DNA from: Rhizoctonia solani
Taxonomy: Eukaryota > Basidiomycota > Agaricomycetes > Cantharellales > Ceratobasidiaceae
Reading direction: 5' to 3'
Assembly: GCF_016906535.1 (NCBI RefSeq)
Contig: NC_057381.1
Location: 558,001-622,000 of the forward strand
Length of the DNA stretch: 64,000 bases
The translations under genes and the position numbers were made by a program. The notes under the pieces were generated by a model. That model did no database searches. It worked only from the letters and a program-made list of their open reading frames with translations, and was not told where the DNA came from. Within the stretch, counting starts at the first letter, position 1; every line of letters begins with the position of its first letter. Of this stretch, positions 432 through 42,773 are shown piece by piece.

Positions 432-2687
432 TTACTTTATCTTCTGTTTCGGCGTATCTGCCGCACCTATTGCTCCGAGAGCCCACCAGATCACGACACT
501 CATCATGTACCTAATGGATTCGAGCGTCCCAAAGATGTTTTCACCCAACTTTCGTATGATGACTGAACCGCTTGCGCGATCCGGAGAGGCGATGGAGAAC
601 GGGAGCTTGAGTTTAAGTCCGGGGATAGAGATAGATGTCGCAGCTCTAAGACCTGATGTAAAACCGTCTTCATGGAAGCCTGAGTTATTTTCATGTGTAT
701 TAGAAGCTCATGAACGCGGAGGGTAGGGAAAGTCACTTGCCATATTTCGTCCACGCACCGGCATATGATATCCCACGTATATTCTGAATCTTGGGGAGTT
801 GTGCTTGTGCAGCAATACTCTGACAATTATAATTATCAGCAAAGTAAGTCTGAGAGTCTCCACAAATAGCTAACCTGCGCGCTCATGACCGGATGTTCGT
901 ACAGTGATTGGTCAATCACCAGTTCAGGACGAGGTTCGAAAGGAGGATTTAATGTAACCAGCACAGGCCCATGATAGTTTTCGTCGATGTGTTGTAGGTG
1001 GTTCATGCAATCTATTGAAACCAGAGATACGTTAGCTATCAGGCTCAAACTTTAGCGCGGGTTTATGGGGGTTCTGGGGGATGGTAATACACCCTAGTGC
1101 CGGTGTAAGGAATGCCGGAACCAAGTCCGTGGATATCATGATCGATGGCATACGTACAGGTTCTGAAAGAGTCTCCAGTAAGCAAATGAGGGGGACAGGT
1201 TAAAGCCTGTACTCACAAGGATACCTCATTGACATTCGCTCTCTTTTCTCCTTGGGCATTTATCTCTGAGAATGTCAAATAATTCCAGCATGACCACGCC
1301 GCGCGCCGTTTGGGCATAAGCTATTCGAGTATCAGAATAAAGCGTCGGAACAAGCGTATGACTAACGCCAACATCCGAATGAAGCACAGCTCTATTTTTG
1401 CTCCATAAGAATGACTCCAGTATTTTTTCTTCGTCGGCCGTAACTCCTGTCCCTTGGCGGAGGATGCGGAGTGAGGTGTCGGAGTGGGTTGCGAGAATTA
1501 CATGGTCAAACTCTTCTGTGCCGGAGGGTAGCTTGATTTGCACTTTGGAAGACCCTGGTGATGTTGAGATGCTCTGGACGGGCGTAGATAGATGCAACTG
1601 TGGCTTCGGAAGTTTATCTAATATACGATTGACGTATTTGTGCCTGTGAAATATTTCAGGAATAGTTAGATAAGTTATCTGTTCTGGGATAGGGGTGATA
1701 AAGGTACATACGATCCACCAGGAATAGTCAACCACTTTGGCTTTCCTATAATCTGAAGTAGATGATGATTGTGCATAAACCTGATAAGAGTACGGGCGGG
1801 GAAATCGAGAGCACAGGTGTCTGGAGGTGTGGACCAAATTGCAGCGGTCATGGGCTACACCCATCCCAAAGACAAGTTGATTTGTTTCACAATAATATCA
1901 AGGAGTCTCCGACTCACTATAAGATAGTCATCAACAAATTCATTGGAGTAGCCCTCTTGCGTCAAGTAATCGCCAATACTCAGTTCGGTCTTTGTATTTG
2001 ATGATGACTCGCTACTTTCTTCAATCAGGCGACGGGCCGAGGCATTGAAACTAAAAGGCAAATATAGTGTGCCCCCGCAAAGCAGAGATTTGAGAAGGCG
2101 TACCGCAAGATATCCCAAACCATTCTCCACATCCCGGGTCGGAATAGATTTTGGATCTGGCAAAACAATGTCGTAGGATCCTTTCCAGCCCATTCAAAGT
2201 CTCCTTTGTCTCGCGAAACACTGAATGTCATTTCTGTAGGGACCACCGGGACCTTAACATCGGGCAGTGCGAGGAAACGAAGGAAGTTGGGATAACTGGG
2301 TGGGTTGCAAACAATCTATCAAATGAAAGGTTGGATGCATACTTCGTAGTCCAAGGAGACGAATCTTACAAATCCACTAGGATTGTATTAGATGCTATGT
2401 TTTGCTAGTTCTGTAATTACATAGTTCACTCACGTATCAACATCAATCCCTTGTACCTCTTCATTTGTACCAGGACGCTTAAACCTAACAGTGTTAGCGT
2501 GTCCCCCTGGCCGATTGTCAGCTTCAAAGAGATGGACTTCTGCATTGCTATGCTCATTAAGTGACTGGCTTTACGTATTAAATCTTTCCAATGATACTGC
2601 AAGAATTTCGCTTACCCAAGTTGCGGCCAAACCTGCCACACCCGACCCTACCACCGCCACTCGAGGTCGCTGCGGTGGTTCATTCAT
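432..2687 (-). CDS. FAD-dependent amine oxidase-like oxidoreductase
   Basis: Flavoprotein of the NAD/FAD-binding amine oxidase family (COG2907 type). In bacteria such proteins often accompany cyclopropane fatty acid synthase; the substrate here is unknown. The start at 2687 gives MNEPPQRPRVAVVGSGVAGL, a Rossmann GxGxxG dinucleotide fold, followed by an FEADNRPGGH segment that would bind the FAD ribose. Further landmarks are CNPPSYPNFLRF, WSTPPDTCALDFPARTL, HVILATHSD, the family-typical MPKRRAAWSCWNY block after a short intron near 1330-1385, and SYAGAWTKYGFHEDGFTSGL near the C-terminus, which closes the FAD site. At least seven exons can be followed. One intron near 640-740 uses a GC donor (GCAAGT). 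The protein ends in a hydrophobic stretch (YMMSVVIWWALGAIGA) that could anchor it in a membrane. Family is well supported; exact exon borders near 840-1260 are less sure. Confidence 0.85.
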
Positions 2688-10213: not shown

Positions 10214-13200
10214 ATGGCTCCTCGACCACCACGTTCCAAGAAGCCCAAGTCGTCTCTCAAGGCCTCACGAGCAAATGCACGGGGCTATGCGGCTCGAAAA
10301 GCTCTCAAGTCCTCCGACGCCCTAGACGTATATGAATACTCTACTGGCAAAGTGCGAAGATCAGGCGTTGGGCTCTCTCTCGGCCGAGAAGAGGAAACAG
10401 GTTTAGGAAAGGATTCGGATGAAGAGGACAAAGGGCTGGACGAGGTCAAGGAGAACCTGAGGCTGAGGATTGCAAACGCGGATGAGGACGGCGTTGTTGG
10501 GAGTGACGACGATGAAGAAATCGATAGTGATGCGGCGTTTGAGGACGAGAGCGATGAAGAAAGATTCGCAAATTTCAAGTTTAATGTGAGTAGTAGTGGG
10601 GAAACTAGCACAGCTTATCTTCGAGATGAACGGATATAGTAGGGCTCAAAAGGGAAGGCTACCAAAGGGAAGGGCAAGGCTACTGAGAAGTCGATCAAGG
10701 TCTCATTTGTGACAGATGTCGATTTAAACGAGGATGAAGACGAAGACAACGAACCGACCCCAAAACCAATCGCTCATGGCTCAGAAGGTTCAGATGAGGA
10801 CTCCCAGGATGAAGAGGAGGAAGATGTGGAGAGTGGAGACGTCGGAGCTACGGTTGAACTGTCAAAAATGCTCGAAGATAATGCCCAATCCGAGTCAGGG
10901 TCGGAACAAGAAATGGAATCAGATCCTGAGGCGCCGTCTGTGACCTCACACGACGACCTAGAGGCCGACACCAACTGGCCGACTTTATTTCCACTCTTGA
11001 CACATCTTCCAAAAAACGTAAACTCGAAGAAGGCTCGGCGGACAGAGCTGGCAAAAAACGCGTCGTGCTTCAGGACCGAACGGAGGCTGGACCTGAGGGA
11101 GAGTTCGGAACTAAGAGTGGTGCGCTCTTGCATTTATCGCTAATTTCTCGGTATTTCTCTGATACTTTATTTAACAGGAACCCAAATTTTAACACTTTCC
11201 GATCTTATTGCACCCACTTCTTCGCTATCCCAATCAACAAAGGCTCTCCAAAGCACGACCAATCCGCACTTACCGCGCCACTTCCCCAACGAATCCAAGA
11301 CCGGATAGATAGAGAGGCGGCGTACGAACAAACCAAACAGGAAGTTCAAAAATGGGCGCCGACGATGAAAAGGATTCGAGACGCAGAGCACTTGGCTTTC
11401 CCTTTGCAAGGCCCTGCCGCTGGAAAGAAAGGCACGTCGAATGGGATGTTATTGATCGATTTCAGGTTCGTCTCATATACACTAATAATCTTTTTTAATA
11501 CTCTTCTAACCATGTGGTCCGGAACAGCCGTCTACCGCCATGGAGAGCGCCATTTCCTCTCTTCTTCGCGCCGCGAACCTGCACACAGACGCCGCGGCTG
11601 CAGAAGCAGAAAATACTCTCGCAGCTGCGACAATCTCAGAAGAGGATCTTGCCGCCCGTCGTGCCCAACTTCGATTGACCAGAGAGCTCATGTTCCGTGC
11701 GGATATCAAGGCCAAGCGTGTTGCTAAGATCAAGAGCAAAGCGTATAGACGGATGAAGAAGCGGGAGAAGGAAAAGCAAAAGGAGGCTGCAGTCGAGTTA
11801 GGACTGGACGAAGGGGAAGAAGTAGATAGGATGCGGGCCGAAGTAGAACGGGCGAAGGAACGAGCAACCTTGAGGCATCGAACCACGGGCAAGTGGGCCA
11901 AGGCTATGCGCAATAAGGGAGAGGGACGAGGAGGAAATGGGGGCTGTGAAAATCCTTCAGGATCGAGCCGAGATTCTGAGGCGGAAGATCGCGGGAGGGG
12001 AAGAAAGCAGCGATGACGACGATAGTCATGGCGAAGATAGGGATATCCAGGAGCTTGAAGAGCTCGGACAAGCCGAGTCACTTATTCGTGCCAAGGGAAT
12101 CATGGGTATGAAGTTTATGCGAGATGCGATCGCCAGAGCAGATCGTGAAGTCGGGACGATGGCCAATGAGACGAGACTGGAAATGCTTGGCTTGCAAATA
12201 GATTCCAAGATTGAAAACTCGATGGGTGATGAAGTGGTTGGTGGTAATCTAGGAAGGAGGATATATAAACCAGGGCAGGTTCAGGTACGCTATTATTTCT
12301 GGCCACGAAGTTCGTTTATGCTAATATCATACAAAGCCCCCGGCAACATACTCGGATATATCGAGCACACTCAAGTCATCCGATTCACACGAATCTCCGT
12401 CAGATACCCGCAACTCTCTCCCCCCATCCCTGCAGAGTCGCCTCCGCCTCTCAATACGTTGTCCATCTCTAACTCGGCTACCACTCTCGAGCCTGACAAT
12501 ACTTCCAACCCATGGCTGGCCACCACGACACCTAATTCGGGGAAGATCGCACGCAAAAACAACGTTAGGCAAGTAACCAAAATGCAAAAAGTTCAAACGA
12601 AGAGCGAGGAGGAGCGTACTCGGCGAAGGAGGATGCAGCAGTAGAAATCGATATCGACCAAGTTTTAGTTGTTTCTGAAGAAAAGACAAGACCTGATACG
12701 CGATCTGTCAAGGAGACAGCCAAGACGGTTGATTTGGCGTACGCTCCTTCGGATGACGAGGGTACCTTCGGATGACGAGGGTAGCGATACAGACGAAAAG
12801 GCTCCAGCAGCGTTCAAGCAGCGTGAACTCGTAGCCATGGCCTTCGCTGGCGATAACGTTGTTGAGGTGGGTATTTATTAACTTATTGGTTATCTCATAG
12901 GTTGAAAAATCCGTTGGTAGGATTTTGCAGCCGAGAAACAACGTGTGATTGAAGAAGATGCTCCGAAGGAAGTTGACACTACTTTGGCAGGATGGGTAGG
13001 TTTATGAGACAGATGGCAAATAGCCTCTAACGAATAATGCGATAGGGCTCATGGGGTGGCCGTGGTACCAAAAAACAAGCAGCTCGTCCCAATCTTATCA
13101 AGAAAATTGCCGGAGTAGATGCATCCAAGCCGCTGATGCAGGTAAAAAGAACATTATAATCTCCGAAAAGAAAGACAAAAAAGCAGCCAAATATTTGGTG

Positions 13201-13420
13201 AAGGACTTGCCTTATCCCTATACGAGCAAGGAGCAGTTCGCGAGAAGTATGGCTACGCCTATTGGGACGGAGTGGAACACCCGAGTAGCACATCAGAGGG
13301 CTGTTTTGCCGAGGGTGGTCAAAAAGGTTCGCATGCGGCATATATTGATACATGAGCCTGTGCTGAAGGTTTCTCCTGTAGATGGGAACCGTCATCGACC
13401 CACTGGAACGGATGTTTTGA
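10214..13420 (+). CDS. UTP14: U3 snoRNP protein Utp14, frame broken at several points
   Basis: Utp14 is a small-subunit processome component that activates the helicase Dhr1 during 18S rRNA maturation in the nucleolus. The start MAPRPPRSKKPKSSLKASRA is followed by acidic Asp/Glu stretches, then AYEQTKQEVQKWAPTMKRIR, the hallmark KAKRVAKIKSKAYRRMKKRE, VVGGNLGRRIYKPG, FKQRELVAMAFAGDN, GSWGGRGTKKQAARPNLIKK, ISEKKDKKAAKYLVKDLPYP and, after a last intron, MGTVIDPLERMF. All blocks are in order and length is near normal (about 880 aa). However, adjacent conserved blocks lie in different frames: breaks are seen near 10970, 11442, 11924, 12615, at a 19-bp duplication (12765-12783), and near 13130. Either this copy is a recent pseudogene or the assembly carries indel errors. 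Confidence 0.85.
12746..12783 (+). repeat. 19-bp tandem duplication inside UTP14
   Basis: The 19-mer beginning CCTTCGGATGACGAGG occurs twice head to tail (12746-12764 and 12765-12783). Removing one copy restores YAPSDDEGSDTDEKAPAAFK; with both copies the frame meets a TGA within a few codons. Confidence 0.95.
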
Positions 13421-13694
13421 GGATTGTATCAGATTGTATTTGTATATCGTTTTGCCTTGCGCTAGATTTTATATTATTGGAGTGTGTGTTAGGACCGCTC
13501 ATGGCCCGATTCACAATTATTGACCATATATATGCGCTTTACGGATGCGTTTTAGACTTCCCTGTAAAAAATGGTGACCATAATGCTCATGCTCGCGCGT
13601 GCGGATAGATCGTATTCGCATTCGTAGCAACTTTCTTATTTAACAGCCTGTCTGCACCACGCTTCCATCATTCGGGTCTACAGGTATCTCTAGG

Positions 13695-16974: not shown

Positions 16975-19596
16975 CTGTCAAAGCTAGTGAAAAGTGAACG
17001 GGATGGAGACAGCTGGTTTGATATGAGGCTTTTTTATACCGTAAAAGGCTGTGAGGAACGGAGGGCGGGAGAAGGTCGCATTATCCACTCGTATGCCGAC
17101 CAAGAAGCTCCGGTTGCGTGGATGAGTACATGGACACAAGCTAGAAATCAAAAGGTTGAATCTAATTTAGAATGGAGAAGCCCCAATTCGTCGTGGAAGT
17201 GATGCGCCAAGTATTTGCTTATGGTTGCAAACAACTAAGTCAAGTTCAACGGGGAAATCATTCACGCCAATGAATTGGCTAGTTTGTTTCATGGTATAAC
17301 ATAGCACAGCCTTTATAGATTTCCATGGGCTGGCTGCCGCTACCAAGTTTGCCAATTTTTTGCACATTAGCCCCTGCCAAGAACGTGAAATATTGGGCAA
17401 AAACCTATACCGAGTTGAATTTGTTATATTGTATAATTTTGGAAGATTGGACGTGCCAAGTCTACGCGTAGTTATGCACATATCGTAAAACAAGGTTCCC
17501 GCCTATACACCCGTCGAATCAGTCTGATGTGGGAGACCTGATGGTTTCAAGTAGGACACAACGGTGGAGGGCTTGATCGAGCGCTGTATGATGCGTTGGC
17601 CTGAGGAATAGACGCCTAATCCACGGGACGATCGTTCATTTCAATGTGTTCAATTTGGTTATCCAATAGTAACGGTCCTCCATCGTCCTCTTTCGCTATG
17701 TCCAATAGACACGCGGTTGGCATACCCACCCGCGCTGTGCCCAAAATTCACTGCCGTTTTTGGGCACGCTGCCCTACTGCAGGCCCCGGCATCGCCACCG
17801 ACCGTCTCTTTCTATTATTCTGCCTTCCTCACTTCGGTTTCATGGTAAGCAAGGACAAACTCGTGTGATTGATAGCCTTAGTCAGAAATGATGCAATTCG
17901 ATTGCAAGCTCTCCAGTACTGTACTATTGATCTCATGAGCATTTCTCCCTGAGCCTCGGCAAACCAAATGCATAGGTTCAGTAGCAATACCATAAAGATT
18001 TGCTTCCAAAAGATAAGTATGGCCCAAGTCAAACTTGAATTACCTAAGCCTGGGAAATCTGTAGGAGGACAACGTGCTGAAAATTGTGCGCTCTTTTTGG
18101 CTGAATTCGGTCTAAAAGGCGGGGTGGTTCGTAATGATTTTGTGTGTTTATACTGAAAAAAATATATTAATATCCATCCGTGAGCTCAAATAGTACTGAA
18201 CGTGGTCATTTTCGAGCACTGTGGTAAGTTTAGTATATTGTCCGCATACAGTGTGGAGATTTGAATCAGGTAGCAGCACTGTATGACCAAGGTATGATAA
18301 GAGGTATAGCAACCAAAGTCAAAATAGCGGAGGGGACTCATTGTTTTATAGCTCAAGACACTGAATCATATTTATGTGCAAAAATGCACCGAGACTCATT
18401 AATACTGTGCTTCGTGTTTATCCAGGCACAGATGCTAGATTTGTTGACGAGACCCATGTTATCCTATCCCATAAGCTGTTGAAAGGAATCCAAATTACCC
18501 AAAGCGCCTTCCCCTCTCTTATAAGAGACTGAAATTCTGCCCATACTTGCAATTGTGTATTTATGAATTCAGAAGATGGCTTCAAGGTTACAAGCCAAAG
18601 TAGGCGAGAAGTTGTCCTCTATTCGTTCGGACTATCATGGGTTCCAAATCTACCAGCATTTGGACTAAAACTGTGTAGTCATCATCCCATACATGTACAC
18701 ATGGGTCCACACTCTAGACTTCGCCGGCCGCGTGTACCTCATTCTATTCCCAGGCGATTTTGGTATATTTTATTAATCGTTTTCTGCGGTGACCGGACAT
18801 CATAGAGTTGATTTGGTCTGTAATTTGCTGGCAAACGGCATATAAGGTCGCCGAAATATATTGATTCCCGACGCAATCATAAGTCGCAGCCGGAAACACT
18901 CAAAGGCCCAAAATGACGCAAGTTCTTCCATATGCATAGCCCGGATGTGTTACCAATGATCTTTCGGGTTGACCGGACTCTCGTCTGAAGTGTTGAGACC
19001 GGAAATCAAGCTACGGGCGCCTATCCAGGTGAATTACAAAGTTTGAAATTTAGTTCCCTCCGGCCTACTTTTACACACACAACTCTGTTTGCCAGTCTAT
19101 ACCTCTTGGGAGCGAGTTGTGAATGATTTAAATATAGCTGATTAAATAGCGTATTGTCGTAAAAGACAGATTAGTTCACGAAGCACGCCGTGGGATTTTG
19201 TAGTCGTACTGAGGCGATCGGCATCTATATCACTCGAAAACAATACACGGCCGACATTAACACACTTTGCTTAGATGTGGCTTCTGATCGGCAACTATTA
19301 GTATCTGCATCCTTTCTAGCTGGTTATCTCACTTTACCCCGCGTGCACATGGCACAGACGACCAGAGAACAACAATCTCCATGGGCAGTATAGACCGACA
19401 TACTTGATATATCATTTTGAGGCTCTGCTAGTCGTTCCGCAAAACATTTTGATGATGCGCATACTTCAGCGTGCCGGCACCGCCGCGACCGGTTGTTCTC
19501 ACGATTTGAAACTACTACCTGTCCCTCTTCATCAACTACACACGGGTTGAGTTGTGCTAGCGCTCTCCTCTAATACTTTAGATTATTACTCTCCCA
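16975..19596. other. Long intergenic stretch
   Basis: It contains the promoters of the divergent tyrosinase (-) and fungalysin (+). The tyrosinase TATA-like element is at 17033-17039. Short ORFs such as 17644-17868 and 18563-18805 have no recognisable features and no splicing partners that I could find. No repeat or RNA gene seen. Confidence 0.35.
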
Positions 19597-21775
19597 ATGG
19601 CTCCCCTGCATAAGCTTGCTGTTGTTGCCTTTCTCATTGTGCAAGGTGCCATTGCCGCCCCTTGGTATGTTTTAGCTGTCGTTTTTGAACGAAGGCCTCG
19701 TACTCATACAATTATACAGGGATGGCATAGCCGTCGGACTACTCATGCCGTGCGCTCGGTTGGCCCCAGGGGGACTTTGTTCCACTCATACCACCCTGAA
19801 CCTCGGTTCGAAACTTATGGTGTTCATGGCGTTGCTCACCCACTTGCCAAGCGAGGTCTACCAAGTACCCACGAGGAGGCCGCAAGGGCATTCCTTTCCG
19901 AGAAGATGGGCTGCGAAGCCGATACCCTCGCACGCAAGTCCGGTCACTATTTTGGCTCTACTGCCCATGAATACTTTAGGCAAAGCTTCAACAATATCCC
20001 CGTCGCAAATGCTGTTGCAAACGTCGCACTCAAGGGAGATCGAGTGGTATCATTCGGCACCAGCTTTGTGAAACCTAGTGCGTGGAGCTTTTGAGACATT
20101 TTTATATTTACTGACGTGGGTTCAGAGAGCGTTGCGGCTGCTACGCCCCTGTTGTTGGAGGAAGAGGCTGTTGAAAGCGCCGAAGCTGCGTTAGGAGGTG
20201 TGCGCACTGAGCACCCTGTTTTTGTCGAGTATTTTGCCAAGGACACAAACCATGTTGTGCTCACCTATGTGGTCAACATCCGGAATTATGAGACAGAAGA
20301 GTGGCACGAGGCATTCGTCGATGCTCATACAGGCGAAATTGTGAACGTGATCTCGTTCGGATCACATGCCAGCGTAAGTATAACAGCCCTGTCTCGAGTT
20401 TTCATATTCATGTGTTCCTTTAGTACCGGGCCATCCCTCTCACCTCTGCCGATCCGACCAATGGCTTCCAAACTTTCACCGATCCCCACGACCCCATTTC
20501 CTCGCCCGACGGATGGCATGCATACCGCAGTATTTTCTCGGGAGAATTACAGTATACGAGCCACTGACGGTAACAACGCCCATGTGTTCAAGTCTACAGT
20601 AAATGACGGCTTGACTAAACAAAGCTCGGCTGTGAACAACTATAACTACGCCTTTGACCCAGCCAGTCACCCGCTGATAACAAGGATGCTGCCACCGTGA
20701 ATGCGTTCTACGTGGTCAACATGATGCACGATTTGCTCTACCGCTATGGTGAATGGTTTACATGCTGTTCTAGGATTAAAATTTGACTGTTTGATCAGGG
20801 TTCACTGAATCCGCATACAACTTCCAGTACCACAACAACGGCAAAGGTGGTGCTCAAAATGACAATGTCTACGTCTCTGTTCAAGTGAGCGAGAAAACCG
20901 TGTTCAACGACGCCAGCTTTTTTACTCCCGGTGACGGCGTAAACGGCGAGTTGCGCCTGTACCTTTGGAACAAAACCACCCCTTTCCGCGACGTCGCTTT
21001 CGAGAAACGATCTGTTGGTTCATGAGTATGCACACGGTCTCACTGGACGACTTGTCGGTGGCGGGACCGCGCTGCTTGCAGTCAAATGAGGCGCGTGCAC
21101 TGGGTGAGGGATGGTCCGATGCAGTTGCAAACTGGGTCAGGCAAACATCCGCCCAAAGCGCCTCGCAGGACTTCACCTTGGGCAGCTATGTCAATGGCAA
21201 AAGCTTGCGCGACTACCCCTATTCGACCAGTATGAATACCAACCCCTCACATACAGCTCACTTCAAACTCGCACCGAGTATCACGCTGCTGGGGAACTTT
21301 GGGGAAATATCTGGCACGAGATCTTTGCTGCATTTGTTTCCAAGTAGTAAGTAACGTGCGCTATACACTTTTGTTTGAGGCTGATCCGTAGCTTCGTAGT
21401 GGGTTTTCCAACGACAAAAACAACTCTACTGGCACTGCTGGAAATATCGTGGCCCTCCAACTACTCATCGACGCCCTTCCTCTCCAGCCATGCAACCCAA
21501 CGTTCGTAAATGCCCGAGACGGTGAGTTCGGAACAGCGCTCTTTTTTGAAAAAGTGAAAGCTCATTTTTGGTGTAGCCATCCTTCAAGCAGACTTTAACC
21601 GCTCTGAAGGTGCCAATGCATGCCTTTTGGTAAGTCTTCGCTCCTCATAAAGATTGGCTTTTTTGTGCTAATTGTCGTCCTTCAGTGGTCGGTATTTGCC
21701 AAGCGTGGTCTTGGATATGGTGCGACAACCACCAAGGCTGATGTCTTTAAGGTTCCAACCAGTTGCTCCAAATAA
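19597..21775 (+). CDS. Fungalysin, M36 metallopeptidase
   Basis: Extracellular zinc endopeptidase with propeptide. The signal peptide is [20 protein letters not shown]. The FTP-type propeptide shows [20 protein letters not shown] and [20 protein letters not shown]. The mature enzyme shows [20 protein letters not shown], the zinc site [17 protein letters not shown] (HExxH), the third ligand region [37 protein letters not shown], and ends [20 protein letters not shown] ... KVPTSCSK. Nine or so exons. Frame breaks separate conserved blocks near 20533, 20674, 21004 (AAA where AA fits), 21070 and 21244 (CCCC where CCCCC fits); most sit in short homopolymers. Family use: degradation of extracellular protein, linked to pathogenesis in some fungi. 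Confidence 0.9.
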
Positions 21776-34177: not shown

Positions 34178-36447
34178 TGTGTAGGTGAGTAGTATGTAGC
34201 ACGTGCAAGTGACTAATTTGGAGTTTGTGAGAGACCGCTGGAGGGATCGAGTTATTTAAAGTGCTGATGAGGCTTGCTGGGGATGGTCCAAGTACGTGGG
34301 GTAGTTATACTCTTGGGCTGGCACCATGCGGCCATCTGGGGGTTGCAGCAGTAGTGATACAGTGAAGCGAGGATAATAGACCAAGTCCCTGGATAACAAA
34401 TGGCGATCACAGAAGCCTTTAGTTGCTTTTCGGGTGGTCAATGGTCTCTGGCGTTTGATTTGACGCTCCGCTGAGAGGGGGAAGTGTGTGACCCTGTGGG
34501 CCCTTATTTGGATCCCACGTGGCTCTATGAGACAGTGAAGCAATGGCATTTTTCAAATTGCCCGCCTTTTGTTTTGCCCCCGTCTTTGCGGCAGTAAAGT
34601 AAAATATTCTGTATATTTTTCCCAGTAATTATCACTGTCGAGATACGCGGGTATCCATAGTAGCTCAATAGTCATCAGTATGTATGTATACTAATTGTTC
34701 GAATTTCAGAATTTCTTATTGTGGTGGAACAATAGAAAGCGTCTCACTTTTGCCTCGGGCCAATCACACATCCACTTATCAATTATTCTCGATCTTAGCG
34801 AACCACGATAGATGGTCTATTGTCGTCATACGCTCTATTAAATGACAATAGACCATCCAGCCATAGTAGTATTGTGGTCAATACGAGGCTGCCAGTACTA
34901 TAGGCCTCGATGCGTTTTCTCAGGCTGGACATACAAACAACGTGCGCGCAAGTATTTAATCCCGCGCGGCTACATCACCCAGGCGGAGCTTGGATAATCA
35001 GGGCAGCGGAGTCGTGAGTCGCCTCAAACTCAGCGGACTAGCGGGCGCTATCACTCAGTCACACTTCACGGGTGGCAATAGTATTATCTCCCTGGGGCGA
35101 AAGGCCCGGTCAACCACTGCCACTTGATCACAGTGCTAAAAATTTCCTCTTTTGAACCTGCTACTCGAACATGAGCGTGAAAGTGGCGCGATGAAACAGT
35201 AACTCCGCGACTTGAACCTGTGGCCCTCCGTTACCCGTGGCCACCATCGCGCGCGCCGTTTGGTGGGATTGCTTTAGCACAAAGGTGTTTATCATCTCTT
35301 AGTTATATTAGCAGCCATTTCCGGCGCCTTAATGTCAGATTTCAAAAGTCTCGAATGTCAAGCGTGGCACCGGTTTCACGTACGTATCGCATCAACACGT
35401 CTCGAATCTTTATAAGGTCTGAAATGAATGCTTAAAAAATCTATAAAATCTACGACTTTCTGGGGCTGATCCCTCTGGTGCAACGTAACTACTGGATGGT
35501 TAAAATACAATCGAGGTGTACTACTAGGTCAAGATGTAAAAGGGAGGTCGCCGTAAGAGCGGGACAGGACAGGTGGTAAACATAGCAGACCCGGAAAGTA
35601 GGGCCAGTGTAATCTAAGTTCTAATAAGCGCGCTGAAACCGGTTATATAGTAGACAAGGGACCGAGAGAAACAGGAGGGAGGAGAAAAGAGTAAGAATAA
35701 AGAAAATTTAAACAAATAAGTAGCTTGTGAGTTTGTTCTCATAACCGTACATTCTGTTTAAGTCACTGTGGTACCTTGAAATCTGGAGGTTGGTGCAAAT
35801 CGATAGATTCGTTTTGATAGCTACGATCGAACGACTAAGGTTATCTCGGACGATACTGTAGCTTTGCTGATCCTTGGACATTTTCCGACAGTGTGAGAGC
35901 GCAGATTTGGGTTGTGCCTTCTGTGTGTATTGATAAATTGGGCTACACGTGAACGTTGCGCATACAATATACATCGAGCGGACGTGTACGGCCATGTATC
36001 ACGCCTATGTACTGCCGTTATCACCGAGTCCAACTCGACCTTTGTGATGATCGAGACGAGATATATTGTTTTGTACCTGTGATGTTATTTTTGCTTGACC
36101 AAACAGTCCTTGACACTTTTAGTGAGTTCTCTTCCTCCCCTCACCCATCACCACTGTTCTCAGACGTGGCCACTTGACCTGCGATTTCTATTCGCATCTC
36201 AATGCCCCAGACCATCCGGTGCCGCATAGTTGCGCGCCCGATATCCTGCGCTCATATCTAGGGCCAGACGACAGCCCTATCGATGGATCTCGCGACGATC
36301 GGAGCACTGGAGCTTGAATACAACTTTATGCTCTTCTGAAATCGATGTAAATCATTGAACCACATTTGATCTGTAGCGACGTAATACATGTGCGCATATA
36401 GACTGCAGTACCTTTGTAAGTCATCAGTGCTTTGGTCTGCCTTTTGG
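34178..36447. other. Gene-poor stretch downstream of the microexon gene
   Basis: No coding gene recognised. It contains the promoter side of the Lys-rich gene, a perfect 14-bp inverted repeat at 34811-34857 and A/T-rich sequence. I looked for continuation of the microexon pattern here and found none. Confidence 0.35.
34811..34857. repeat. Perfect 14-bp inverted repeat (hairpin)
   Basis: GATGGTCTATTGTC at 34811-34824 is the exact reverse complement of GACAATAGACCATC at 34844-34857, leaving a 19-nt loop. It lies in noncoding DNA and could be a MITE remnant or a structured RNA end. Confidence 0.85.
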
Positions 36448-39400
36448 CTACTTGTACACACCATCCAAAACATCAGTCACAGATTTGCTACTTTTGACGC
36501 GGCGCTTGAGATCCTGATTGCGCTTGGTCTGGAAAGTTGAGCCCAATACAGAAGTGGCGGCGCTTGAGATCCTGATTGCGCTTGGTCTGGAAAGTTGAGC
36601 CCAAGTACAGAAGTGCTCAATACCCATGACCGGTTCGGAGATCAACACAGCTTTACCATGGTGTAATTCCCAGTCATGAGGTCCGACCTGTTGGCGGGCA
36701 TGACTTCTCAGAGTTGCATCCTGAAGTGGTGTATGCCAATAGCCGTTTGAATTACGCAAAATAGAATGCCGCTCTGCTGAAGATGTACGTACTAACTGAG
36801 GAATACATTGACATTAGTCAATACTGGAGCGCATACTTGAACAAAAGGCCCTGTGTACTCACCTGCTGAAAAAGCAAGACAACAACGTGTGTCAGTCAAA
36901 GGCCATTTCGGCGTAATGAAGGCAATATACACACAGCCTAAGATAATGAATCCAGGTCCTCGAACCATCAGCGTGCTCCCACAAGCAATACAGCTTATAC
37001 GAACCTTCTATAGTAGAAATACTCAATCCTCAAGTTCTAGGCACAAATTTGCTGTCAAGAAAAATAAGTACGTACCGCCTGAAAAAGTAGATTTGAGTAT
37101 CAATCAAGTTTATTAGCACCTGCTCCGCCAAATTTCTGCTGCATTTGCACCTCCTGGGAGATGAGATACAGGCTTCTGTCAGCACGAGTCACTTCACTAA
37201 AACTAATATCATGCACGTACAAACTGGAACATATAACGAGGATGTTCCGACTGATCAATGGGTGTCCTCTATAGCTATTGTGAATGGCAGATTGAAACAT
37301 ACCCACTAGAAGAGAAGCAGACCCAACGAGCGGCAGTAAGTTTCCATGAGAGGTAGATATGTGTGGTAAACTCACTGGCTAAGATTGTAGACACAGAGTC
37401 TCGAAGGTAAGTACGCATTGCCGCACAAGAGTGATTGCATAACGCACATTCTATAAATAACAAATATGACAAGGAATTCAGCAGGCATTCATACAAGCCA
37501 TGAGAAATATACGCACTTGCTGGGTCAATTCATCAACGTTTATCGTAGCGGAAAAAAGAATACGAAAAAGGAAAAGAAAAAACAGACTCACCATCTGAGG
37601 TGGCAGATATTGAGCAGTAAGCTTGTGAAACGCATGAACAAACTCTACATACCCACTAAGGTATTGGACGGTACAGTGTGTGGTCAGTGGATACCGATGC
37701 TCGACACCAGCCCCGTACGCACCCGCTAAGATACCGAACAGCACGGAGTGAGTGGTCAGCGGATATCGATGCTCGACACCAGCCCCATACGCACCCCCTA
37801 AGATACCGAACAGCATGGAGTGAGTGGTCAGCGGATATCGATGCTCGACACCAGCCCCGTACGCACCCGCTAAGATACCGAACAGCACGGAGTGAGTGGT
37901 CAGCGGATATCGATGCTCGACACCAGCCCCATACGCACAGCCTAAGATACCGAACAGCACGGAGTGAGTGGTCAGCGGATATCGATGCTCGACACCAGCC
38001 CCATACGCACAGCCTAAGATACCGAACAGCATGGAGTGAGTAGTCAGCGGATATCGATGCTCGACACCAGCCCCATACGCACCCACTAAGATACCGAACA
38101 GCACGGAGTGAGTGTTCAGCGGATACCGACGCTCGACACCAGCCCCATACGCACTTCCTAAGATACCGAACAGCACGGAGTGAGTAGTCAGCGGATATCG
38201 ATGCTCGACACCAGCCCCATACGCACATCCTAAGATACGGAACAGCATGGAGTGAGTGGTCAGCGGATATCGATGCTCAACACCAGCCCCATACGCACAG
38301 CCTAAGATACCGAACAGCATGGAGTGAGTGGTCAGCGGATATCGATGCTCGACACCAGCCCCATACGCACATCCTAAGATACCGAACAGCACGGAGTGAG
38401 TGGTCAGCGGATATCGATGCTCGACATCAGCCCCATACGCACATACTAAGATACCGAACAGCACGGAGTGAGTAGTCAGCGGATATCGATGCTCGACACC
38501 AGCCCCATACGCACAGCCTAAGATACCGAACAGCATGGAGTGAGTGGTCAGCGGATATCGATGCTCGACATCAGCCCCATACGCACATACTAAGATACCG
38601 AACAGCACGGAGTGAGTAGTCAGCGGATATCGATGCTCGACACCAGCCCCATACGCACAGCCTAAGATACGGAACAGCATGGAGTGAGTGGTCAGCGGAT
38701 ATCGATGCTCGACACCAGCCCCATACGCACAGCCTAAGATACCGAACAGCATGGAGTGAGTGGTCAGCGGATATCGATGCTCGACACCAGCCCCATACGC
38801 ACCCACTAAGATACCGAACAGCACGGAGTGAGTAGTCAGCGGATATCGATGCTCGACACCAGCCCCATACGCACAGCCTAAGATACGGAACAGCATGGAG
38901 TGAGTGGTCAGCGGATATCGATGCTCAACACCAGCCCCATACGCACAGCCTAAGATACCGAACAGCATGGAGTGAGTGGTCAGCGGATATCGATGCTCGA
39001 CACCAGCCCCATACGCACCCACTAAGATACCGAACAGCACGGAGTGAGTGGTCAGCGGATATTGATGCTCGACACCAGCCCCATACGCACATCCTAAGAT
39101 ACCGAACAGCATGGAGTGAGTAGTCAGCGGATATCGATGCTCGACACCAGCCCCATACGCACAGCCTAAGATACCGAACAGCATGGAGTGAGTGGTCAGT
39201 GGATATCGATGCTCGACACCAGCCCCATACGCACCCCCTAAGATACCGAACAGCACGGAGTGAGTGGTCAGCGGATACCGACGCTCGACACCAGCCCCAT
39301 ACGCACATACTAAGATACCGAACAGCACGGATTGAGTGGTCAGCGGATATCGATGCTCGACACCAGCCCCATACGCACATCCTAAGATACCGAACATCAC

Positions 39401-41274
39401 CCAATTATTTGTCAGCCATCGTAGCCTATTCCTATTTGTACAGTACCTACAGGCTTAATTTCACCAGGTAGCCGTCATTACATAGTTAGCGAATACCTCT
39501 ACCCAGCTAGTCTACCCAAACCTTCTGAGATGGGTAGTATGAGTACGAAGGTTACCACTGCATGCTTCTTCTCCAGAAACACCCTTCACTCACTGTCTGA
39601 AACCGACGTCCCGATTCATTTTCTATATCATCTAAGAGCTTGGGGGCTACGGCGTACGTACCTCCTGGATTTCGATAGTCAGCATTCCCTCTTCCTCCTA
39701 ACCCTCCACTTAGTGACAAAATCATGAATGCACCTACCAGCTACTCGTACCCAACACCCCAAAATCCTTCAGTTCTCACTCGAGGTGTCGAAATCGACAC
39801 CTGGACACATACCGCCTGCTCCGTTGATGAGTATCACATCAATCCTACTTTCGACCATTAGCTAATCCTCAAATCATCATACATGGGGCTGATACTTGCT
39901 CTTGAATTCATTATAGTTCGCTCACTCTCTACCCATTGGTGCACTACATGAGATTTCGTCATCCTCTATAACAGAAAAAGGTCGCTTACTTCCTATTGAC
40001 ATGACATGTATTTAGCTCTCCTTTCTGCAGGACAGGTAAGCTGTATTCGATTTGGTCAAGAAAACCTTTCGTGCTTACATATAGGCCGCCCCAAAGTCGA
40101 CACCATCATGTTGGGTTGTAACTACTTACTTCCTGTGCACTATCCATACGCATCAGCCCATTGCTTTAATATCATCCGAGCCACTTACTAATGCTAGCGT
40201 TGCGTGCAGCGCATTCACATTAGCCGACATGCGTTCCGGCGACGCACACGACACACTCACAGATCATCCTGTTTCTCTCTAGTCAGGATTCGGTGAACGT
40301 ACAGCCTAACAAATCAGCCATGAGTGCTGTCGAATATATCGTTTCGCACCCCTTGGGTACAGCAGACCTACCAACTATCACAATTGTCATTATGGCTTCT
40401 ACGTCAAGAGAGGTACGAATAAGAGGCCAGTAGACGCGACATGTACCTTCTGCAAAGCACGTAGATTAGTCATCTGCCTTATCTGCACTCTTACACACAT
40501 ACCATCTGTAAACAATGTAGGAAATGAAGTTACAGTCATATGCACCCAGGAGACTACTGACCTTCTGTTGAGTTTGGAAGTCAGGTCAGTAACATAACCA
40601 CGGTTGAACACTCGAACGCACTATCTATATGTGTTGATATATGGTTTCGGTCTAAGGTCATAACTCCCGATTCTGTTGTTATTTGTACATACCCACTGCT
40701 CATGTCTCATCATATCGTGCATAGATATCTCAGTTAGCATGTACTCACATCCTGTTTCCAAACGGGGCTTAATGTCTTTTGTATCCAGGTACAGCAACTC
40801 ACTCACCCTCTGTTGAAGTGTTCGCGACAACCATGGTCAGCACCCAGATCATATCTGGCGAGTTGCACACGAACCGCCTATCAACATTTTAGCTTTGTTT
40901 GCGCCAAACATGAGCAACATTAGAGTTCGGTACGCACTCGCTGTGTGGTTATTGAGGCGGATTCGTCAATCCAGCGTGAATCCGGATCTCTCTGCCGAAA
41001 CCCTACTCACTTCCTGTATGTGCGTATCATATTTTACTTTTGTCAGAATCACAGCGTCTTGCATCGAACCCGGTCTTACATCCTTCAGAATATGCGGGGG
41101 TTACAATCAGGCTCAACAAATCCAAGTGGCTGAGACCCTTATATGACTCATACCTTTGCCTTTGGTTCCTGCATACATCGGACACAGCCAAGGCAATCGA
41201 ATGATAGTATCATGGTATATGGTTATCACCGATGCCCATTGAGTGAGAAGTAGATCCTTGAGAGAGCGTACCAT
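36448..41274 (-). CDS. Gene built of about 60 three-nucleotide exons
   Basis: No family recognised. The ATG is at 41274-41272, the end of exon 1, followed by GTACGC. Exon 2 (41168-41154, or its last 6 nt) reads EPKAK. Then 3-nt exons follow, each with AG before and GT after: DERARDWIKMKLA (41082 to 40303), irregular pieces of 8 and 5 nt, E, E, R, A, L, E, T, a 15-nt exon TSWVE (39511-39497), P, then 24 codons of the tandem array (DYGADWAAWAAY, then AYDADEWAARGR), then WMQNPWFEAKAQL (37655 to 36793). A terminal exon from 36720 continues in phase 0 as DATLRSHARQQVGPHDWELH and ends near KRNQDLKRRVKSSKSV ... VYK at 36448. Introns are mostly 53-80 nt with GTRNGT-like donors, many with visible CTRAY branch sites. 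In all, 58 triplets, none a stop. The product would be about 170-180 aa, Trp/Ala/charged-rich with a basic tail. Seen: the signals. Inferred: that they are spliced. Confidence 0.8.
36501..36617. repeat. 58-bp tandem duplication in terminal exon of the microexon gene
   Basis: GGCGCTTGAGATCCTGATTG starts at 36501 and again at 36559. The second copy is one base longer (CAAGTACAG versus CAATACAG), so the ORF reads the two copies in different frames yet stays open to the stop at 36448. Confidence 0.95.
37700..39400 (-). repeat. 72-bp tandem array: 69-nt intron-like unit plus variable triplet, 24 triplets
   Basis: Triplets sit every 72 bp from 39379-39381 down to 37723-37725. On the minus strand each lies between a conserved TTCGGTATCTTAG and GTGCGTATGGGGCTGG. 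The 69-nt spacer has a donor (GTGCGT), a CTGAC branch (CCGCTGACC) and an acceptor (CTTAG). Spacers are nearly identical, whereas the triplet takes seven forms: GAT, TAT, GGG, GCT, TGG, GAA, CGG. The period is a multiple of three and one frame is open through the array, giving a 640-codon ORF (37478-39400) with a 24-residue repeat (core GILGCAYGAGVEHRYPL). I read this ORF as a by-product of the array. Confidence 0.95.
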
Positions 41275-41276
41275 TT

Positions 41277-42249
41277 CTTATTTCTGATGTATGAGTTTTA
41301 TGATATTTGTTGAAGGCCTCGACGCTTGGTCGCGATCTGCGCAATTGTTAGCTATGGAGGGCTACCGACTCACTAACGAGTGATAGAACGGGGAACGAAG
41401 AATCGAGGGTGCAGAGTTATAAGTTCTCACAACCCAGAGACTCGCACCTACCTCGAGGCGACCTCAAGGTGGTCGTGAGGTCGGTTTGGGCCGGCCCTAA
41501 AGATGCAGACCGTGGTCCTGCTAAACAAGCAAGAGTTGCATGTCTTCTCCAGGAGGTCACCATTAGATAGAATTCTTCGCCGCGCCTCATTGACCGGCCG
41601 CGCTATATACTGAGAATATCCTGTCCAACGTCCATCGATAGTTGTCGTGACCAATGGTTCATACCACCGATGTATGCGCTATGTTTCGAATATGGCTCCT
41701 TGGATCGGGCGGTTGACCCAGACCTTGAGTGTTCGGCAAAGGTTCGGGACGCTGCCTCACACGACAACATAGCTCACCGTCCCAGAAGTCTGATGACATG
41801 CGACTTCGATCTCATGCACGTATATGTTGTCCTTGCAATGTGAGTTCGGCAATGACATCACGGAGCACTCTATACACTTGATCGGATGACTTCCCGGATC
41901 AGAGTGGATGTAATTGTCACACTGTAATGTCACAAGTTGAGCTCTGCGTATATATCGCTAATTTACAATAACATCGAAGAGGATTGTCAAGGTGGAACGT
42001 CTAAAGCTCCTGACCGTATGCTCTGACAGAATCGTCGCGTAAAAAGGCGATATGCGCGGCGCGATATCGGAAGGGTCCCAGGTCGTCGTGGCTTTTTGGT
42101 ATATCGTTTTCGCGTTGGGGGTTTCTCGATATATTGCGGGAAGACCGGTTGACCGTATTTAGTGGAAAAGACCCGGATTTTCTATCCTAGAGCGCGCAGG
42201 TGGCCCAGGGTGTATTTAGACCTCGATTTTTCATTTGGCTTACCAGTTT
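41277..42249. other. Intergenic region upstream of the microexon gene
   Basis: It should hold the promoter and 5' UTR of the microexon gene (-). No other exon was recognised in it. Confidence 0.35.
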
Positions 42250-42773
42250 ATGTACGGCGTGGCTGACATTGATACTCAGACCCAAATTCAGGGCAAGTTC
42301 ATTTCAAGGTGAAGTCACTCTATTAGAGGCACTGTGAGTCGAGCTGGTTTATCTTCTTTGTTATTTTATGAATATTCGCTGAATGGTGTGCTATAATTCC
42401 TCCCGTTATTGAGCTTACGGTTAAACGGACTGAAGGCTCTTCGTTAATTTTATTTTGCAGTTACTAGCCCCAGAGGAGGTTATTTCCAACTACAGCCTAC
42501 AGCCTATGCAAACTCAACCATCGAGGGACAAGCCAGCCAAGACTTCCAACTTTATGTAGCCCATAACGTAATGGATGACCATGTCTCCAGAAGGTGAGCT
42601 TGAATGGGCCACGAATGGTGCCTTATTTTGACGTTTTACACAGCCAAAACACTCTGTCTCAGGCTGATCAGATGCTTCAGCCAACCGATGATCCTTGGCA
42701 AACCGTCGGGATGAGATTCCCTGAATTGGGCGTAGGCGGACATGAGGCGGGGAGTCTTGGTTCTCCTATATAA
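42250..42773 (+). CDS. Doubtful three-exon ORF upstream of M28 peptidase
   Basis: Splicing GT-AG introns (after 42308 and after 42593) gives an open frame of about 104 codons: MYGVADIDTQTQIQGKFIS, PRGGYFQLQPTAYANSTIEG, ASQDFQLYVAHNVMDDHVSR, SQNTLSQADQMLQPTDDPWQ, FPELGVGGHEAGSLGSPI, stop. The sequence looks protein-like, but its last 100 bases, including the TATATAA at the stop, align with the promoter of the M28 paralogue at 49.4-49.5 kb, where this protein is not encoded. It may therefore be a chance frame over a promoter. Family unknown. Confidence 0.3.
42767..42773 (+). promoter_or_regulatory. TATA box of the plus-strand M28 gene
   Basis: TATATAA sits 69 bp before the ATG at 42842. The paralogue on the minus strand has TATATATAA at the matching place (about 49462-49470), within a conserved upstream block. 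Confidence 0.65.

Follow-up and report, generated by a model that had tools for sequence, protein, structure and literature searches.

We describe a candidate gene, here called W, on the minus strand of a 64,000-nt stretch of DNA from the rice pathogen Rhizoctonia solani (contig NC_057381.1, positions 558,001 to 622,000 of the forward strand; this whole stretch is referred to as the window). W very probably belongs to a family of protein-coding genes whose codons mostly form separate phase-0 exons of three nucleotides; the genome is R. solani AG-1 IA-like. The anatomy of the gene, its conservation among copies and the codon-like evolution of the exons that flank its tandem array are seen directly in the sequence. 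A DNA search with W covering the whole genome (40.7 Mb, 16 contigs) gave, among the matches listed, six more copies (C9, C12a, C12b, C13, C11 and C16) and a short fragment on contig C3. The parts of the window copy are as follows, with AG1IA_08049 denoting a public R. solani AG-1 IA protein.

36488..41274, minus strand: W, from the ATG exon to the stop codon (TAG, 36490-36488), drawn from the exon model, the paralogs and the spacing test
41337..41373, minus strand: 37-nt intron predicted within the 5' untranslated leader, with GT and AG kept in 7 aligned copies
41272..41274, minus strand: first coding exon, the ATG alone, with the donor GTACGC directly after it; ATGGTACG is invariant in 7 aligned copies
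41154..41168, minus strand: exon 2, 15 nt, from the alignment and the exon model
40303..41082, minus strand: block A, 13 single-codon exons (41082 GAT to 40305 GCT), predicted peptide DERARDWIKMKLA
40261..40268, minus strand: 8-nt exon of the middle block, from the alignment and the exon model
40189..40193, minus strand: 5-nt exon of the middle block, from the alignment and the exon model
39993..40024, minus strand: site of the 11-nt exon of the middle block, which is present with its donor in C9, C12a, C13 and C11 but not in W
39451..40132, minus strand: block B, nine three-nucleotide exons (40132 GAA to 39453 CCT)
37675..39400, minus strand: 72-nt tandem array of 24 units, each a hypervariable codon plus a near-identical 69-nt intron (codons 39381 to 37725)
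36793..37655, minus strand: block C, 13 single-codon exons (37655 TGG to 36795 TTA), predicted peptide WMQNPWFEAKAQL
36657..36720, minus strand: penultimate exon, 64 nt, ending in phase 1; the intron after it is also implied by AG1IA_08049
36488..36528, minus strand: last coding exon, 41 nt, ending in TAG

The leader intron has the branch site CTAAC (CTGAC in C12b), and exon 2 is 9 nt long in C9, C12b and C16, a length difference that is in frame. The middle block is made up of exons of 8, 5, 3 and 11 nt (27 nt together); the three-nucleotide member is the first exon of block B, GAA, which is out of codon phase when the middle block is included, and the remaining eight triplets of block B are predicted to encode ERALETKP. 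At the 3' end the phase-1 intron measures 70 nt, or 128 nt if splicing uses the second acceptor of a duplicated pair. The pair stems from a tandem duplication of about 58 nt in W (36499-36615), not present in the five other copies aligned there, which doubles the last acceptor and provides an alternative exon start at 36586. An earlier note on this DNA had proposed one open terminal exon running to a stop at 36448, which we reject because the other aligned copies share the phase-1 intron and show synonymous changes in the exon beyond it. Its list of exons held the triplets and lacked the 15-nt exon 2 and the 8-, 5- and 11-nt exons of the middle of the gene.

Splice signals of the window copy

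Counting strict matches to YAG-N(k)-GTRNGT on the minus strand over 36201-41520, we obtained 49 at k = 3 (25 outside the array and 24 inside it), while any other k in the range 0-30 gave 0-2 matches in total. The remainder of the window's minus strand holds three strict matches at k = 3, as does the plus strand over its full length; the plus strand also has 23 strict matches at k = 6, of which 22 are the 72-nt array read in reverse and one is an isolated site. Each of the seven gene copies has 30-70 strict matches at k = 3 and 0-3 at every other k from 0 to 15, with 0-2 per copy for directly abutting acceptors and donors (k = 0). The YAG-NNN-GTRNGT regularity is real and is particular to a spacing of three, in agreement with the regular acceptor-NNN-donor series on the minus strand that had been described before.

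The triplets listed for W number 59, with the ATG additional, and none of them is a stop codon; 55 of the 58 gaps between triplets are 53-79 nt long, and the remaining three measure 110, 137 and 170 nt. These counts match the earlier description of at least 58 triplets, all of them sense codons, separated by introns of mostly 53-80 nt, and comparably short GT-AG introns were read by eye in an amine-oxidase gene of the same window. The introns have the features of the U2-type spliceosomal class (GT...YAG ends, the GTRNGT donor consensus and a branch site), with some donors that deviate from GTRNGT (GTTCGT, GTCAGT and GTTTGG). A CTRAY branch site, said by the earlier note to occur in many introns, lies 5-50 nt upstream of the acceptor in 17 of the 34 W introns outside the array, where 300 shuffles gave a mean of 5.8 and at most 11, and in 23 of the 24 inside it. 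The introns outside the array had also been called unrelated to one another, and a short-word blastn comparison among them returned no mutual match at E <= 0.05; the intron directly before the array, with 15 nt in common with the array unit, is the only one outside the array to have such a resemblance.

Paralogs and change at the flanking codons

A second search, started from C16, gave no further copies among the matches listed, and every match listed for W or C16 lies in one of the seven copies or in the C3 fragment (these counts are lower bounds). In their longest matches C9, C12a and C13 are 79-84% identical to W, and C12b and C16 about 70%; C12b is without the 3' part, and C16 is diverged. 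C11 is 99.8% identical to C13 over 9.9 kb, and as a near-duplicate it was excluded from the codon and array counts, in which the two count as one. The sequence upstream of the gene (41274-42398) is common to W and C9, and less closely to C12a, for about 1.1 kb, and to C13 for about 270 nt only; its longest stop-free stretch is 90 codons. The C3 fragment consists of a few isolated array-like units (L015 4736-4935) and is possibly a remnant.

The alignments outside the array include six copies upstream of it and five downstream. Mean pairwise differences in these alignments are 0.010 at the acceptor AG and 0.005 at the donor GT, 0.133, 0.118 and 0.192 at the first, second and third codon positions, and 0.277 in the other intron columns, and gap columns number 0 of 105 in the triplets versus 218 of 2181 in the other intron columns. 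Each flank position holds much the same codon across copies. Among W, C9, C12a and C13, 12 of the 20 one-base codon differences are synonymous, against a share of 0.28 when triplets are sampled from introns (P = 0.0002, 5000 draws). For the same four copies the ratio of nonsynonymous to synonymous divergence (dN/dS) is 0.08-0.22 in six of six pairs, with synonymous divergence (dS) of 0.16-0.61, over 35 flanking triplets, which include the invariant middle-block GAA, not a codon in the full model and contributing no difference. The two terminal exons give 0.20-0.81 in the six pairs, and the flanking triplets and terminal exons together, with C16 added, give 0.19-0.62 in ten pairs. All three blocks (A, B and C) are free of stops in frame 0; in frames 1 and 2, block A has 11 and 7 stops (six copies), and block C has 1 and 5 with five copies (0 and 4 with four). 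When C16 is added to block C, synonymous changes make up 8 of 19 in frame 0 versus 5 of 20 in frame 2.

The regular spacing and strong conservation of the blocks would also be expected if YAG-NNN-GTRNGT were a repeated DNA or RNA binding motif, forming a regulatory array instead of splice sites. We consider this hardly credible: the variation after the triplet stays within the donor consensus (GTATGT, GTGAGT, GTACGT, GTTCGT and GTAAGA), the base preceding the acceptor AG switches mainly between C and T from copy to copy, and the flank codons are kept position by position, with the excess of synonymous changes given above. The same data bear on a second alternative, in which splicing does occur at these sites, yet in a noncoding host RNA whose triplets are leftovers with no coding role. 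In its favor, the coding product is very small beside a gene length of about 5-6.4 kb, and Pfam gave nothing at E <= 1 for the predicted proteins of C9 and C12a. Against it stand the codon-type purifying selection at the flanking triplets (seen more weakly in the two terminal exons), the stop-free frame 0 of the three blocks, the three complete ATG-to-stop frames of the models described below, and the lack of any Rfam match at gathering score in the window, and we judge a host RNA to be very unlikely. No tRNA was detected.

In C16 (L014) the TTG codon exon of the other copies aligns with a 6-nt exon, TTGGTG, which suggests that an exon may gain a codon.

The 72-nt array

The array comprises 24 units in W, 32 in C9, 33 in C12a, 25 in C12b, 48 in C13 and 13 in C16, giving 13-48 single-codon exons across copies with introns of mostly 69 nt. 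Spacings other than 72 nt occur in C13 (68), C11 (68 and 71) and C12b (70 and 71); an apparent stop together with a spacing of 73 in the C11 array is not real, the unit there being TAG-GAA-GTGAGT. Diversity was calculated on exact 72-nt units only (23 of 24 in W, 31 of 32 in C9, 32 of 33 in C12a, 46 of 48 in C13, 12 of 13 in C16 and 18 of 25 in C12b). Mean diversity per column, triplet versus intron, is 0.54 versus 0.033 in W, 0.61 versus 0.024 in C9, 0.64 versus 0.069 in C12a and 0.63 versus 0.157 in C13; the three triplet columns have values of 0.71, 0.59 and 0.30 versus 0.135 for the intron in C16, and 0.76, 0.74 and 0.39 versus 0.393 in C12b. Counted as minimum events per site, the triplet excess is 11.5-fold in W, 23.0-fold in C9, 5.4-fold in C12a and 4.1-fold in C13 (P from 3e-4 to 6e-7). 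The array codon is hypervariable and the intron homogenized, clearly so in four of the six copies. C12a has a single identical intron after five different codons, and C13 and C12b have no pair of identical array introns.

The 175 array triplets of the six copies fall into 24 types, the commonest being TGG, GAT and CGG, and contain no stops, versus 11 expected from base composition, or 3.9 if distinct triplets are counted per gene (P = 0.02). We did not take the absence of TAG as proof of coding, because a YAG triplet would also create a second acceptor. None of the 175 array triplets ends in C, while flank triplets sometimes do (ATC, CCC, GCC, AAC, CTC). An NNC triplet before GT would create a CpG, and CpG-to-TpG hypermutation is reported in R. 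solani AG8 in the cited passages (PMC4014442); weak U1 pairing is an alternative explanation. CpG hypermutation as the sole source of triplet diversity is not favored, because the one-step links between triplets in W include transversions (GAT-GCT and GAT-TAT) and most intron CpGs are retained in W (one of six survives in just 0.52 of units), C9 and C12a, and less so in C13 (0.59-0.87).

We also considered that the array might encode an unspliced protein of 24-residue tandem repeats, with the splice-like appearance being a coincidence of the repeat. W contains an open stretch of 658 residues, the period of 72 is divisible by three, the W and C9 arrays have at least one stop-free frame, C12a has frames with only one stop, and, of five Pfam matches obtained with the W frame, four pass the curated cut-off as a whole-protein sum. 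The frames of the other copies do not fit this: C12b has at least 10 stops in every frame, C13 and C11 have stops in all six, and the best frame of C16 has two. The spacings of 68, 70 and 71 nt in C13, C11 and C12b disrupt the phase, and the 35 non-repeated triplets outside the array are left unexplained. In a protein search with the W frame, in which the 8000 candidates sharing most words were scored, none reached E <= 0.001, and the five Pfam families are mutually unrelated, with no single stretch over threshold, a result that sums over repeats can produce. On these grounds we rejected an unspliced repeat protein, which appears exceedingly improbable.

Gene models, splicing and known systems

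We joined the predicted exons unaltered, with no base edited, and obtained complete frames for three copies: C9 (74 exons, 342 nt including the stop, 113 residues, 68 three-nucleotide exons including the ATG), C12a (75 exons, 351 nt, 116 residues, 69 three-nucleotide exons, counted likewise) and C13 (90 exons, 396 nt, 131 residues, 84 three-nucleotide exons). In these joins every donor is GT and every acceptor AG, and all but one of the three-nucleotide exons are exact phase-0 codons. The three-nucleotide exons account, with the stop counted, for 204 of 342 coding bases in C9, 207 of 351 in C12a and 252 of 396 in C13; very short symmetric exons make up the greater part of the coding sequence, which is the structural mark of a micro-exon gene. 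The charged N-termini of the models are, by eye, unlike signal peptides. The only match to the predicted C12a protein is AG1IA_08049, whose C-terminus is exactly the peptide predicted from the last two exons of W, across the phase-1 intron, and whose N-terminal part resembles, when compared by eye, the translated intron after 37305. AG1IA_08049 shares the last two exons and otherwise appears to consist of translated introns, an example of how standard annotation can overlook such a gene. From this match and that of the amine-oxidase frame described below, we take the DNA to come from R. solani AG-1 IA or a very close relative.

The frame of the family models is preserved only with the middle block (8, 5, 3 and 11 nt) included. 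In W, the 8-nt and 5-nt exons sit within the 170-nt gap and the site of the 11-nt exon of C9, C12a, C13 and C11 falls in the gap of 137 nt, where a 14-nt deletion takes out the donor of that exon and leaves the frame through the block uncertain. W may be a decayed or recently damaged copy, or it may splice around the middle block. The simple phase-0 join given in the earlier note is inexact for W, in which GAA at 40132 is not a codon when the middle block is included; for the other triplets of the family frame 0 is correct. Its central claim, a protein-coding gene of chained three-nucleotide exons, gains support from the paralogs through their splice dinucleotides, the length of their triplets, their codon-like change and the three open frames.

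Several observations weigh against a coding gene of this kind. The open frames arise partly by construction: splice signals were built into the search patterns for exon 2, the middle block and the terminal exons, and the triplets were placed with the help of the alignment. In W, joining with the 8- and 5-nt exons gives a first stop at the junction of block B and the array and further stops after it. The donor of the 11-nt exon is weak (GTGCC; GTGTC in C16) and its intron is only 35 nt long, and the intron ahead of the 8-nt exon is also weak, at 34 nt. The middle block is altered in C16 and C12b; three splice dinucleotides at single codons are gone from C12b, as is one acceptor from C11. Half of the W introns outside the array (17 of 34) have no CTRAY in the tested range, and splice sites 3 nt apart must compete sterically. 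The synonymous share drops to 18 of 37 once C12b and C16 are added, block C alone in four copies gives 4 of 11 synonymous in frame 0 versus 5 of 12 in frame 2, and block B is stop-free in frames 1 and 2 as well. The minimum-event excess in the array is not significant in C16 (2.6-fold, P = 0.084) or C12b (1.5-fold, P = 0.15), and the missing TAG among array triplets may stem from avoidance of a second acceptor as well as from coding. As to the middle block, the 37-nt leader intron with its clean branch site suggests that introns of 34-35 nt are possible in these genes. The 8-nt exon has no clear acceptor in the C16 alignment and a GC donor in C12b, and the 5-nt exon is absent in C16 and has a weaker donor (GTAATT) in C13 and C11.

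As read in the sequence, the gene runs from the ATG exon through a short exon 2, 13 single-codon exons, the middle block of 27 nt, 8 single-codon exons, an array of 13-48 single-codon exons and 13 further single-codon exons to two longer terminal exons. Under the coding reading, its short introns would be recognized singly by intron definition, probably in order during RNA synthesis, and each splice would retain one codon and place the next donor against the growing message, in the manner of a recursive-splicing ratchet that leaves three nucleotides each time. A protein of 113-131 residues would result, with conserved ends and a hypervariable center rich in Trp, Asp, Arg and Pro. Because a unit of the array consists of a single codon and a near-identical intron, unequal exchange inside the introns could insert, delete or reorder single residues without a frameshift; selection for diversity probably maintains the different codons, while exchange would homogenize the introns. 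Our guess, held with low confidence, is that the protein is a recognition or interaction peptide. We put forward tentatively a scheme of single-residue shuffling, in which intron exchange, and possibly splicing of any donor to any acceptor, builds new strings of peptide while the conserved ends hold the frame; diversifying selection on the codons would then make the family a recognition or variation system that has no known parallel. A related alternative, overlapping with the coding gene proposed here, is a recursive or alternative splicing platform whose triplets are skipped or included in many combinations, giving no single string. Every array codon is in phase 0, which keeps each subset in frame, and the array donors and acceptors are near-identical, so that any donor could pair with any acceptor; the flanking codons, however, are conserved singly and in order, suggesting routine inclusion, and such a platform seems unlikely.

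Among the papers listed by our searches of the open-licence PMC literature, which does not include most subscription papers, none was seen to report one-codon exons chained in this way. Recursive-splicing ratchet points of Drosophila leave nothing behind and subdivide long introns; they resemble the present sites in that acceptor and donor abut or nearly so and one splice creates the next donor, but here the spacing is 3 instead of zero, one codon is left per step and the introns are about 69 nt long. Fungal introner-like elements disperse among genes, and intron gain by tandem duplication has reportedly been studied as well; in those cases, as here, similar introns multiply, whereas the near-identical introns of this family are arranged in tandem within one gene, every unit carrying an exon codon. 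The hypervariable repeat arrays of fungal NLR/het genes likewise combine a homogenized unit with varying codons that set specificity, but there the whole repeat is coding and here 69 of the 72 bases are intron. Isolated ultra-small exons demonstrate that an exon only a few nucleotides long can be spliced in when ordinary introns lie on both sides of it. A paper on RPS24 is said to describe a 3-bp microexon.

Further cases of this sort in the passages cited are 1-nt exons in plant APC11 and VPS55 (PMC8831610) and in Fusarium CYP621A (PMC12940212) and the microexons of Phanerochaete P450 genes, the shortest of 6 bp (PMC1184071); as described there, they occur as one or a few per gene, unlike the dozens chained here. 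The bicycle genes of aphids, also a microexon-rich gene family, are described in the cited text as having about 17 exons on average, with internal exons almost all in phase 2, and the aphid 'megacycle' gene as having more than 100 microexons and encoding about 2000 residues, so that its exons average many codons (PMC9168663). The phase-2 pattern given there is not found in the present family, in which all but one three-nucleotide exon are in phase 0 with one codon each. The micro-exon genes (MEGs) of Schistosoma, as presented in the cited passages, have exons of up to 36 bp, form a class apparently restricted to schistosomes, and resemble the present genes in being built mainly of short symmetric exons removable in frame, in forming multigene families and in a proposed role as a source of protein variation (PMC8293314). 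By comparison with those passages, the present family is fungal, nearly all its internal exons are exactly 3 nt long and it has a hypervariable tandem array; the likeness drawn here is one of structure. We regard the gene as one of a known kind, the micro-exon genes, carried here to an extreme that is very surprising.

If the interpretation is true, intron density would be extreme (89 introns per 396 coding bases in the C13 model), and the spliceosome would be able to chain dozens of one-codon exons. The family would then offer a natural test bed for minimal exon size, the order of splicing and the use of introns as recombination handles for protein variation.

Elsewhere in the window, the amine-oxidase gene that serves as a local yardstick lies at 453-2687 on the minus strand and has multiple exons separated by short GT-AG introns; the protein that best matches its frame at 1226-1897 (minus strand) comes from R. 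solani AG-1 IB (80% identical, with 46% of the query covered). Utp14-like frames at 10930-13608 and a frame with a fungalysin propeptide motif at 19582-20094, both on the plus strand, belong to ordinary genes.

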